This document shows positions 2,148 through 7,880 of a stretch of DNA of 7,890 nucleotides, piece after piece (within the stretch, counting starts at the first letter, position 1; every line of letters begins with the position of its first letter). The notes below the pieces were generated by a model. That model worked only from the letters and a program-made list of their open reading frames with translations, did not search any database and was not told the origin of the DNA. The stretch spans positions 1 to 7,890 of the forward strand of contig JAUXFI010000085.1 of assembly GCA_030620125.1 (NCBI GenBank), given 5' to 3'. The translations under genes were made by a program, and so were the position numbers. Origin of the DNA: Anaerolineae bacterium. GTDB taxonomy: Bacteria; Chloroflexota; Anaerolineae; B4-G1.

Positions 2148-4127
2148 TTGCCCGCTGTGATCGTAGACACGTCCCGCAGTCCACACGCCCGCCTGCGGCC
2201 TGTGCCGCTGACCGCCGTCACGCTCGCCGACGATTTCTGGGCGGAGCGCCGGCGGGTCAATCGGGAGGTCACGCTTCCCTCGCAGTACCACCTTCTCGAG
2301 GAGACCGGCCGGATAGATAACTTTCGCCGCGCAGCGGGCAAAGTGGATGTCCCCTTCCAGGGCAGGTACTATAACGACTCCGACGTCTACAAATGGCTCG
2401 AAGCGATCTCCTGGACGCTCGCCACCGGCGCCGACCGTGCCCTGGCAGAGATGGCCGGCGCCGTGATCGCCGAGATTGCCGGCGCGCAGCAGCCCGATGG
2501 TTACCTCAATACCTACTTTGTGCGCGATAGGGCCGTCGAGCGTTGGACCAACCTGCGCGACAAACACGAACTGTACTGCGCCGGTCACCTGATCCAGGCC
2601 GCCGTCGCCCACCATCGCGCTACTGGGGAGGACCGCCTCCTTCACGTCGCCCGCTGCCTGGCTGACCACATCTGCGGTCTCTTTGGGCCGCAGGAGGAGG
2701 GCAAGCGGGCCGCAACCCCCGGCCACCCGGAGATCGAGATGGCGCTGGTTGAATTGGCGCGCGAGACAGGCGAGCAAAAGTATCTGAGACAGGCATTGTT
2801 CTTCCTGGATGCGCGCGGGCGAGGGCTGATCGGCGGCAGCGCGTATCACCAGGATCATCAGCCGTTTCGCGAGCTGGAGCGCATGGCGGGCCACGCTGTG
2901 CGCGCCGTCTACTTGAGCGCGGGGGCAGCGGACCTTTGCGCCGAGATGGGCGAGCCTGCCCTGCGCCACGCGCTCGACCGGCTCTGGCGCAATATGACGG
3001 CGCGACAGATGTACGTCAGCGGGTCCATCGGCTCGCGCTACGAGGGCGAGGCGTTTGGGGAGGACTATGAACTGCCCAACGAGCGCGCCTACGCGGAGAC
3101 CTGCGCCGCCATCGGCAGCGTGATGTGGAACTGGCGTATGCTTCAGCTTTCGGGCAGCGCCTGCTACGCCGACGTGCTGGAGAACACGCTCTACAATGGC
3201 GTGCTCCCCGGTCTCTCGCTGGACGGCGGGGCCTACTTTTACCAGAACCCCCTGGCCGGCGACGGGAGACACCGGCGTCAACCGTGGTTCGGCTGTGCCT
3301 GCTGCCCACCCAACGTCGCCCGGCTGCTCGCGTCGCTTCCCGGCTACTTGTACAGTCTCAGTAGATCCAAAATCGCTCCGAGGGGATTGTCAAATCCCCG
3401 CTTCTGGCCTGGATCTGGCGATCCAGGCCGAGCAGAATTGGATCTACAGAGTCTCTCCACTGGAGGGCTGTGGGTGCATCTGTACGCCCAGGGGGCCGCC
3501 CGCATCCCGCTTCACGACGGCCGCACCCTCAGCCTGACCCAGCACACCCGCTATCCGTGGGACGGCGAGGTCGTCATTGAGGTTGGAGGGGTGGGGGACT
3601 TGAGCCTTTGGCTGCGTATCCCCGCCTGGTGCGAGGAAGGGGCCACGCTCAAGATCAACGGACGGCCTTTCACAGGTACGCTCGCGCCTGGTTCCTACGC
3701 CGAGATTCACCGCACCTGGCGGCCAGGCGACACCGTGCGGCTCAACCTGCCGATGCCGGTACGCCGTGTCGAATGTCACCCTTACGTCACCGAAAACGCG
3801 GGCCGGGTGGCCCTGGCGCGTGGTCCAATCCTCTACTGCGTCGAGCAGGCCGACAATCCCGGTCTCGACCTGCGCGACGTGCTCCTGCCCACCGGCGTGG
3901 ACTTTGCGGCGACGTTCCGGCCTGACCTGCTCGGCGGCGTGGTCGTGCTGTGTGGTCAGGCCGAGGTCGTTCCACCGCACGATGCCTGGGAGAATCGTCT
4001 TTACCGCGCGCCACTTCCCCGTTTGCAGAAACCGCGTGGCCGCTCCGTGGAGGTGACCGCCATTCCCTACTACGCCTGGGCCAACCGCGAACCTGGCCCT
4101 ATGCAAGTCTGGCTGCGAACCCGGTGA
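2148..4127 (+). CDS. GH127 family glycoside hydrolase (beta-L-arabinofuranosidase-like), with an in-frame palindromic insertion
   Basis: A 659-aa cytoplasmic-type protein with no signal peptide. GH127 enzymes (formerly DUF1680, type member HypBA1) release beta-linked L-arabinofuranose from plant-derived oligosaccharides using a zinc-bound cysteine nucleophile. The equivalents are visible: E301 in GEAFG (acid/base position), E317 and C319 in AYAETCA, and C385-C386 in WFGCACCPPN (zinc ligand and nucleophile). Residues 1-400 form the alpha/alpha-barrel part. Residues 440-659 are the beta-sandwich part, with LWLRIPAWC, INGRPF, WRPGDTVRLNLPMPVRR and ARGPILYCVEQ. Residues about 404-435 are extra: a palindromic repeat inserted without breaking the frame (3361-3447). 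The start is TTG at 2148, because AGGAGG (2135-2140) lies 7 bases upstream; GTG at 2157 is too far from it. GH127-related families (GH142, GH146) and uncharacterised members exist, so the substrate is less certain than the fold. Confidence 0.9.
   Translation: MPAVIVDTSRSPHARLRPVPLTAVTLADDFWAERRRVNREVTLPSQYHLLEETGRIDNFRRAAGKVDVPFQGRYYNDSDVYKWLEAISWTLATGADRALAEMAGAVIAEIAGAQQPDGYLNTYFVRDRAVERWTNLRDKHELYCAGHLIQAAVAHHRATGEDRLLHVARCLADHICGLFGPQEEGKRAATPGHPEIEMALVELARETGEQKYLRQALFFLDARGRGLIGGSAYHQDHQPFRELERMAGHAVRAVYLSAGAADLCAEMGEPALRHALDRLWRNMTARQMYVSGSIGSRYEGEAFGEDYELPNERAYAETCAAIGSVMWNWRMLQLSGSACYADVLENTLYNGVLPGLSLDGGAYFYQNPLAGDGRHRRQPWFGCACCPPNVARLLASLPGYLYSLSRSKIAPRGLSNPRFWPGSGDPGRAELDLQSLSTGGLWVHLYAQGAARIPLHDGRTLSLTQHTRYPWDGEVVIEVGGVGDLSLWLRIPAWCEEGATLKINGRPFTGTLAPGSYAEIHRTWRPGDTVRLNLPMPVRRVECHPYVTENAGRVALARGPILYCVEQADNPGLDLRDVLLPTGVDFAATFRPDLLGGVVVLCGQAEVVPPHDAWENRLYRAPLPRLQKPRGRSVEVTAIPYYAWANREPGPMQVWLRTR
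3361..3447. mobile_element. MITE-like palindromic element inserted in the GH127 coding sequence
   Basis: The 10-bp ends GTAGATCCAA (3361-3370) and TTGGATCTAC (3438-3447) are perfect inverted repeats. Inside are two further perfect hairpins: GGGGATT/AATCCCC (3382-3388 with 3393-3399) and GGCCTGGAT/ATCCAGGCC (3406-3414 with 3421-3429). The hexamer AGTCTC occurs on both sides (3354-3359 and 3450-3455), exactly 96 bases apart. Removing 96 bases rejoins GYLYSLS to TGGLWVHLYAQ, a smooth GH127 sequence. The net insertion is therefore 32 codons with no stop. It encodes no protein of its own. Confidence 0.82.
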
Positions 4128-4168: not shown

Positions 4169-4262
4169 CCTTGCGAAGGTTTGGTGAGAACTTGCTGGCC
4201 AACAGCGTCTTTGCCTACCGAGAGTTGCCCCGGCGACAAGGCCATTCGCAACCTTCGCAAGG
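4169..4262. mobile_element. 94-bp element with perfect 13-bp terminal inverted repeats
   Basis: CCTTGCGAAGGTT (4169-4181) and AACCTTCGCAAGG (4250-4262) are perfect inverted copies enclosing 68 bases with no open frame of note. The flanks also carry a direct repeat, AAGGTGGCGA-Y-GGT, at 4136-4149 and 4270-4283. It is separated from the inverted ends by unequal gaps, so it is not a simple target duplication. The element fills most of the 180-base gap between the GH127 and amidohydrolase genes, so it may be a MITE or a long-armed regulatory or terminator structure. Confidence 0.6.
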
Positions 4263-5991: not shown

Positions 5992-6006
5992 CGCCGGTAA
6001 CCGGCG
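5992..6006 (+). terminator. Terminator hairpin of the amidohydrolase gene, split from its T-run by a MITE
   Basis: CGCCGGT (5992-5998) and ACCGGCG (6000-6006) form a near-perfect palindrome 47 bases after the stop codon at 5945. In the present sequence it runs straight into a MITE. If the MITE and one 9-bp duplication are removed, this hairpin is followed within a few bases by TTTTGTTTTGT (6120-6130), which makes a recognisable intrinsic terminator. This reconstruction is inferred. Confidence 0.45.
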
Positions 6007-6009
6007 CGC

Positions 6010-6110
6010 GTATCTTCTCAATATCGTGGGGCAGTAGGGCGGTTTTGCTAACCGCCATAGGGTCGGATAGCAAATCCGACCTACCCTCGCCCCAACTTTT
6101 TGAGAAGATA
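6010..6110. mobile_element. MITE-like element with 9-bp target site duplications
   Basis: CCGGCGCGC is present at 6001-6009 and, identically, at 6111-6119. Between them the ends TATCTTCTCAA (6011-6021) and TTGAGAAGATA (6100-6110) are perfect inverted repeats. They extend with a few mismatches to GGGGC (6028-6032) and GCCCC (6089-6093), about 18 matches over 22 positions. No coding frame exists inside, so it is non-autonomous. Its centre holds two hairpins, GGCGGTT/AACCGCC (6038-6044 with 6050-6056) and GTCGGAT/ATCCGAC (6062-6068 with 6074-6080), bounded by GTAG (6034) and CTAC (6084). A 9-bp duplication is typical of several DDE transposase families; the parent element is unknown. Confidence 0.85.
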
Positions 6111-6142
6111 CCGGCGCGCTTTTGTTTTGTCTGGGTGTATCC

Positions 6143-6917: not shown

Positions 6918-6991
6918 GGGCCGGTGGCCAAATGGGGAAGGCCCTTCCTTTGCAAGGAAGAAATTTGCGGGTTCGAGGCCCGCCCGGTCCA
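6918..6991 (+). tRNA. tRNA-Ala (anticodon TGC)
   Basis: A full cloverleaf can be folded by eye. The acceptor GGGCCGG (6918-6924) pairs with CCGGTCC (6984-6990) and includes the G3-U70 pair that marks alanine tRNAs. The anticodon arm is CTTCC-TTTGCAA-GGAAG (6944-6960) with TGC at 6951-6953. The T-arm is GCGGG-TTCGAGG-CCCGC (6967-6983), and the discriminator is A6991. CCA is not encoded (CCT follows), so it must be added by a nucleotidyltransferase. The variable loop has 6 bases. Confidence 0.95.
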
Positions 6992-7025
6992 CCTGCGCAT
7001 ATAGGTGTTGGCTCAAAATGCGCTC

Positions 7026-7046
7026 GGCGGAGCCTATGGCTCCGCC
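7026..7046. repeat. Perfect 9-bp hairpin between tRNA-Ala and tRNA-Asp
   Basis: GGCGGAGCC (7026-7034) and GGCTCCGCC (7038-7046) form a perfect stem around the loop TAT, ending three bases before tRNA-Asp. No T-run follows, so it is more likely a spacer or processing hairpin in a tRNA precursor, or a small palindromic repeat, than a terminator. Confidence 0.7.
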
Positions 7047-7049
7047 CAG

Positions 7050-7127
7050 GGTCCCGTGGGGGAGTCTGGAGTCCCCGTTAGCCTGTCGAGCTAAAGATCG
7101 CCGGTTCAAGTCCGGTCGGGACCGCCA
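7050..7127 (+). tRNA. tRNA-Asp (anticodon GTC), CCA encoded
   Basis: The acceptor GGTCCCG (7050-7056) pairs with CGGGACC (7117-7123). The D-arm is GGGG-AGTCTGGAGT-CCCC. The anticodon arm is TTAGC-CTGTCGA-GCTAA, with GTC in the loop. The T-arm is GCCGG-TTCAAGT-CCGGT. The discriminator is G7124, as expected for aspartate, and CCA is encoded at 7125-7127. It is the only one of the three tRNAs here with an encoded CCA. Confidence 0.96.
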
Positions 7128-7181
7128 TATTTCATTTCAGACTTGGTGATGTTGGATTCGGCGATTGAGCCGAGGCGAAGC

Positions 7182-7264
7182 GCCGCCGTGGTGGAACTGG
7201 AAGACACGCCCGGCTTAGACCCGGGTGGGCCTGGCCTGTACAGGTTCGACTCCTGTCGGCGGCA
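7182..7264 (+). tRNA. tRNA-Leu (anticodon TAG)
   Basis: A class II tRNA. The acceptor GCCGCCG (7182-7188) pairs with CGGCGGC (7257-7263). The D-arm has GTG and CAC stems. The anticodon arm is CCCGG-CTTAGAC-CCGGG with TAG in the loop. There is a long variable arm of 14 bases, with GGC-CTG-GCC pairing in it. The T-arm is ACAGG-TTCGACT-CCTGT, and the discriminator is A7264, a leucine determinant. CCA is not encoded. The HNH gene starts 24 bases later, so the two may share a transcript. Confidence 0.95.
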
Positions 7265-7288
7265 CTGGAGATTGAGAAGAAGGTAAGA

Positions 7289-7842: not shown

Positions 7843-7880
7843 CAGAGCACGGGGGAGTCCCCGTGCTCTGTGTGTTTATC
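7843..7880 (+). terminator. Intrinsic terminator-like long hairpin after the HNH gene
   Basis: CAGAGCACGGGG (7843-7854) and CCCCGTGCTCTG (7859-7870) form a perfect 12-bp stem around GAGT, followed by the U-rich but interrupted TGTGTTTAT. An outer pair, GGATAA (7831-7836) with TTATCC (7876-7881), can enclose it. It starts 27 bases after the stop codon. The symmetric outer arms make it possible that it acts in both directions. Confidence 0.72.

Follow-up and report, generated by a model that had tools for sequence, protein, structure and literature searches.

A short palindromic transposon with ISH3-type ends in frame within a GH127 gene of an Anaerolineae bacterium

Background

Insertions of Rickettsia palindromic elements (RPEs), ERIC sequences and repetitive extragenic palindromic (REP) sequences within genes are already known (PMC2229807, PMC10969869, PMC3733652). 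RPEs are described as palindromic mobile repeats of about 100–150 bp that lie in frame in conserved enzyme genes (PMC2229807, PMC10969869) and have CGTC at one end (PMC3733652); the table of one review marks their target duplication as unknown (PMC2229807). The ISH3 insertion sequences are reported to be 1225–1500 bp long, with CRGT ends, direct repeats of 4–5 bp and, generally, flanking A and T; the 2008 survey that gives these features lists the family as so far restricted to archaea (PMC2266710). Here we describe a 91-bp element in a 7,890-bp stretch of contig JAUXFI010000085.1 from an Anaerolineae bacterium (assembly GCA_030620125.1; this whole stretch is called the window), where it lies within a gene for a GH127 beta-L-arabinofuranosidase-like protein. 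We consider it very probably a miniature inverted-repeat transposable element (MITE) with ISH3-type ends, which was moved in trans and inserted in frame. We base this on the borders of the element and the duplicated target, on copies scattered through other genomes, on insertion sequences whose ends match and which encode ISH3 transposases, on empty sites seen in relatives and on a second in-frame example.

A preliminary description of the window had rightly recognized an in-frame palindromic mobile element within the GH127 gene of a probable Chloroflexota, and had likened it to the RPEs. The outcome, an in-frame protein-coding palindrome, is indeed the same, but the element does not belong to the RPEs: it has CAGT ends rather than CGTC at one end, a 5-bp duplication edged by A and T, and a traceable family of ISH3-type insertion sequences. 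It shares the CAGT ends and this duplication with ISH3, from which it differs in being transposase-free and in having a double hairpin as its interior. The in-frame insertion of palindromes, best known from Rickettsia, therefore also occurs in unrelated bacteria. We class the element as an ISH3-type MITE and as a further, new case of a protein-coding palindrome; such cases were known in kind, and this one is distinguished by its traced mechanism and by the modular core described below. Our literature search, which most subscription papers lay beyond, found no description of this element family.

Results and discussion

Architecture of the element and its target site

The features are listed in Table 1. 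The element is short, free of transposase and bounded by inverted ends, as is characteristic of MITEs. It starts with CAGT, and its opposite end read inward is CTGT. Inverted ends had been proposed earlier at a length of 10 bp; they extend over 12 bp, of which 11 match. The two inner hairpins of the preliminary description were confirmed both in the sequence and in the fold. As RNA, positions 3354–3455 folded at -55.8 kcal/mol (z -7.6; 0 of 200 shuffles equally stable) into a closed stem enclosing the hairpins. A chance palindrome is ruled out by this score and by the dispersed copies. Covariation in an alignment of six copies was weak: both partners had changed in 2 of 34 pairs, a value attained in 157 of 500 shuffles. 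It was left out of account.

Table 1. Coordinates of the GH127 gene, of the element and its parts in the window, and loci of a second repeat family
Feature	Position	Strand	Details
GH127 beta-L-arabinofuranosidase-like gene with insertion	2148..4127	+	659 codons if started at TTG; Pfam PF07944, PF20736, PF20737; homologues
MITE with ISH3-type ends, 91 bp	3359..3449	.	copies in other genomes
Left copy of target duplication AGTCT, 5 bp	3354..3358	.	consensus A-G-W-C-T, 60 exact copies
Right copy of target duplication AGTCT, 5 bp	3450..3454	.	
Left terminal inverted repeat CAGTAGATCCAA	3359..3370	+	
Right terminal inverted repeat (TTGGATCTACAG on + strand)	3438..3449	-	family consensus ends ...CTACTG
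GCTC foot, pairs with GAGC at 3430-3433, closing the double-hairpin core	3375..3378	+	folded structure
Inner hairpin 1, GGGGATT-GTCA-AATCCCC	3382..3399	+	
Inner hairpin 2, GGCCTGGATC-TGGC-GATCCAGGCC	3406..3429	+	
Copies of the second repeat family in genome G003	L100, L103, L104, L106, L108, L112, L114, L115, L118, L137, L190, L202, L215, L226		

AGTCT flanks the element on both sides. It had been given as a 6-bp repeat, AGTCTC; the repeat stands, but the duplication proper is 5 bp plus one C, which on the left is the first base of the element and on the right ordinary flank. To place this in the family, we collected from the fetched loci 98 distinct copies with both 9-bp ends within one mismatch, the ends being defined as CAGT. 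An exact 5-bp duplication was present in 60 of them and a longer one in none; with the right flank moved by 5, 7 or 10 bases there were 1, 0 and 0 exact matches. The consensus of the 60 is A-G-(A/T)-C-T (A in 58, G in 45, A/T in 56, C in 45 and T in 59). A duplication of 3 bp, considered at one point, gave way to 5 bp when the description of ISH3 pointed to the outer T and A as part of it.

Copies in related genomes

Copies were sought in the genomes of relatives. Some match was found in all three genomes reached through GH127 relatives. G003, an Anaerolineales bacterium, yielded 48 matches, counting both strands, the best with 87% identity over 101 bp. With a covariance model built on six copies, matches were obtained in 1 of 7 genomes in the order of G003 and in 17 of 48 in that of G001, a Thermoflexia bacterium. 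In G431, 89 matches to the model were obtained, which is every candidate scored, and the 65 copies listed are closely alike.

At three loci of G431 (L262, L272 and L279) MITE copies stand adjacent in tandem, with a target duplication in common. Loops of the core hairpins hold further hairpins or inserts at L140 (207–318) and L095 (1428–1544), and G003 also carries a 77-bp repeat at about a dozen places, with identical covariance-model scores (41.8 bits). The TCAGTAGACTCAA sites of G001 were rejected as belonging to a different repeat.

ISH3-type insertion sequences as the source of the ends

The end pattern TCAGTAGATCNAAA was found in 32 of 298 genomes of the class of G431, which includes G003 and G001 and which we take to be Anaerolineae; the reversed control gave 5 matches among those listed. 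Two long elements were present among the fetched places with this pattern. One (L393, 1340–2816) carries a broken transposase that scored weakly with Pfam; NCBIfam assigned it to ISH3 through two partial matches (E 6.9e-10 and 1.3e-23), neither of which reached the cut-off. The other (L407, 2273–3917; 1643 bp) appears by eye to be an ISH3 element broken up by a second element, and an ISH3 match in the same genome (L415) has the same 22-base end. The ISH3 transposase model (NF033541) matched in 22 of the 298 genomes, one of which (G497, 266.8 bits) passed the cut-off of 225 bits; as a control, the model also matches in Caulobacter.

Sixteen near-full-length ISH3 loci were fetched, of which 10 had paired matching ends and 2 had one end. 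CAGT ends were present in all 11 distinct two-ended elements, and all of these except L407 were 1245–1475 bp long. Six have exact 5-bp duplications (ATTCT, AGTCT, ATTTT, AGATT, AGTAT and AGTCT); in the remaining five the duplications contain one mismatch (two elements) or two (three elements). L424, L437 and L407 begin with CAGTAGATCCAAA and L393 with CAGTAGATCGAAA. The first two, whose open frames span 409 and 421 residues, thus share their start with the MITE in the window. Ends in common with an autonomous insertion sequence, as expected of a MITE, are seen in the comparison with these four.

Within the class there are insertion sequences that have an ISH3-family transposase and 5-bp duplications and whose ends are identical or nearly identical to those of the element, so that the element was most likely moved in trans by an ISH3-like transposase. 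Two other families, ISAzo13 (PF07592) and DDE_Tnp_1 (PF01609), each with matches in 3 of 5 genomes, were tried as partners and rejected: the 16 loci examined had no paired TCAGTAG ends, and TCAGTAG occurred singly at one (L352).

We propose that such a transposase would recognize the CAGTAGATCCAA ends of the non-autonomous 91-bp element and make a staggered cut, 5 bp wide, in the target AGTCT. The element would then be joined into the codons of a beta-hairpin between the GH127 barrel and beta-sandwich, and gap repair would duplicate AGTCT. The resulting 96 bp (91 + 5), in a stop-free phase, would add 32 codons and leave the gene open. Transposition in trans is what we infer from the shared ends. 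With boundaries, target, duplication and candidate transposase family all visible, the conversion of selfish DNA into part of a protein becomes directly testable.

Several observations weigh against this explanation. Exact duplications are lacking in 38 of the 98 copies, 27 having one mismatch and 11 two or more. Four of the 16 near-full-length ISH3 loci have no matching end, and all class-wide ISH3 matches other than that in G497 fall below the 225-bit cut-off. The copies are those of related genomes rather than of the organism of the window. In 8 of the 17 genomes matched in the order of G001 the matches are weak only (best E 1e-4 to 3e-3), and a phylum-wide BLAST matched 3 of 400 genomes, with at most two candidates scored per genome among those listed. 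Finally, an ISH3 match was found in none of the MITE-rich genomes G003, G431, G432 and G671. Their transposase may be missing from the assemblies, lost or a different one; the MITEs there could be stranded, or the genomes incompletely assembled.

The GH127 gene

An in-frame, stop-free insertion of 96 bp, or 32 codons, had been claimed for this gene, and was borne out by the sequence and by homologue alignment. Pfam matched the catalytic, middle and C-terminal domains of the protein and placed the insert between the catalytic (residues 23–398) and middle (441–536) domains, in agreement with the proposed junction of catalytic barrel and beta-sandwich. Against the crystal structure 4qjy the match stops at residue 403 and restarts at 439. 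The predicted fold is intact, with the insert modelled as a low-confidence loop. E317, C319, C385 and C386, taken as catalytic and zinc-binding after HypBA1, are all present and do not vary in an alignment of 58 sequences, as expected from the preliminary description.

That description had also recommended alignment with GH127 relatives. The window protein was aligned with the 119 best-listed homologues of 7998 scored; none of the 119 has the 32-residue insert or an equivalent loop. P0009 (89% identity over 85% of the query) represents the empty site, being continuous across the insertion point. Unrelated extra residues of various lengths stand at the same loop in P0021, P0027, P0032 and P0035, and these other inserts show the site to be tolerant; the DNA behind them was examined for the L003 relative alone. 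The enlarged enzyme is presumably made and active, and the copy would survive through the tolerance of the loop rather than through benefit.

A second in-frame insertion and the question of selection

At L158 of G003, a 91-bp element (2231–2321) lies in frame within an open reading frame (1209–2828) whose product has no Pfam match and has homologues named arabinofuranosyltransferase in one source. It has the left end of the window element and a different inner hairpin, and its duplication (AGACT/AGGCT) has one mismatch. P0121, with 93.4% identity outside the insert, contains the same insert, which agrees at 28 of 32 residues; neither P0122 nor P0124 has it. In the tree the L158 protein groups with P0121, with P0124 as sister. 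P0123 carries a related, repeated and expanded palindrome-encoded segment at the same loop, and since it falls in another clade its sequence suggests an independent event. The inserts of P0121 and P0123 are known from protein evidence.

A screen of 125 end pairs, in which the empty site had to be flanked on both sides by an open reading frame of at least 70 codons, listed nine cases, among which homologues support the window and L158. Two others, L158 2230–2411 and L394, were judged to be mispaired, and L262 to be a tandem array. The remaining four (L091, L123, L235 and L392) are candidates from the screen; of these, L392, at 113 bp, would put the gene out of frame. A frame of 1020 residues over a copy in G003 was set aside, the element appearing by eye to lie upstream of the likely start codon.

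Two genes with in-frame copies, both of 91 bp, an arabinofuranosyltransferase-like insert open in two related proteins, and a related insert at the same loop in P0123 could together indicate a domesticated palindrome, selected for frame compatibility or for its encoded peptide. We regard this as improbable. The GH127 gene stayed open because 96 is a multiple of three and the phase is stop-free, and selection for frame compatibility is unsupported because 15 of the 60 exact-duplication copies have a frame-keeping length; the commonest, 90 bp (24 copies), is not one. Moreover, the L158 insert is less conserved than the remainder of its protein, and the number of open phases out of six is 3 in the window copy and 2, 1, 1, 0 and 0 in five others. 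Frame retention is a matter of arithmetic and is no sign of selection.

The hairpin core in a second MITE family

A second repeat family in G003 (Table 1) has ends GCATTAGGGAAAA or similar and 8-bp duplications, exact at 8 in 7 of the 14 copies and longer in none (10 bases tested). Its interior has 14–22 identical bases with the core of the window element, against at most 12 in 200 shuffles. ISH3-type ends, in turn, surround quite different palindromes in G431, G432, G433 and G671. Because one core is found in two backbones, and one type of end around different palindromes, the ends and interiors of these MITEs seem to have been exchanged between elements. One core shared by two families with different ends bears on how non-autonomous elements come by their interiors and exchange them. 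The core might tentatively be seen as a separately spreading or repeatedly captured unit, lodged within one genome in unrelated backbones (the ISH3-type with 5-bp and the GCATTAGGGAAAA-type with 8-bp duplications) that deposit palindromes inside proteins such as GH127 and the putative arabinofuranosyltransferase, but this is rather doubtful. If true, new protein loops in Anaerolineae would repeatedly arise from modular palindromes.

ERIC/IRU and other bacterial MITEs are likewise short and stably folding, with inverted ends, target duplications and some in-frame fusions with genes (PMC2229807, PMC10969869); they differ in their ends, target and hosts, and from the present case in that here one core occurs in two backbones whose ends are unrelated. 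The GTAG/CGTC REPs described in PMC3733652 resemble our element in having hairpins nested within a longer outer palindrome; in our element that palindrome consists of the paired ends of a transposon, and a target duplication accompanies it.

The inner hairpins do look like a REP pair, REP elements within longer palindromes have been described, including in T. roseum (PMC3733652), and the occurrence of the core in a second backbone means that it may have a REP-like history. It is nevertheless very unlikely that the element is a REP- or BIME-type repeat which a Y1 (RAYT) transposase moved in single-stranded form, because the inserted unit has inverted ends at its borders and a 5-bp duplication of its target. 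Target duplication is not expected of Y1 transposition. An ordinary lineage-specific loop with DNA palindromic by chance, for which the unrelated residues at the same loop of four homologues might speak, is scarcely credible, since it is the DNA and not the peptide that recurs, at unrelated loci and with target duplications, and the peptide is absent from the homologues aligned.

Other features of the window

A second palindrome at 6002–6119, with a core of the form GTAG-hairpin plus hairpin-CTAC, represents another MITE-like family. Its ends are GTATCTTCTCAA and TTGAGAAGATAC (6010–6111), bordered on both sides by the 8-bp direct repeat CGGCGCGC; akin ends were seen by eye in L082, L098 and L110. 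More palindromes lie outside the GH127 gene at 1163–1182, 4169–4262 and 7843–7870. A cluster of tRNA-Ala, tRNA-Asp and tRNA-Leu genes (6918–7265) is located upstream of an HNH endonuclease gene.
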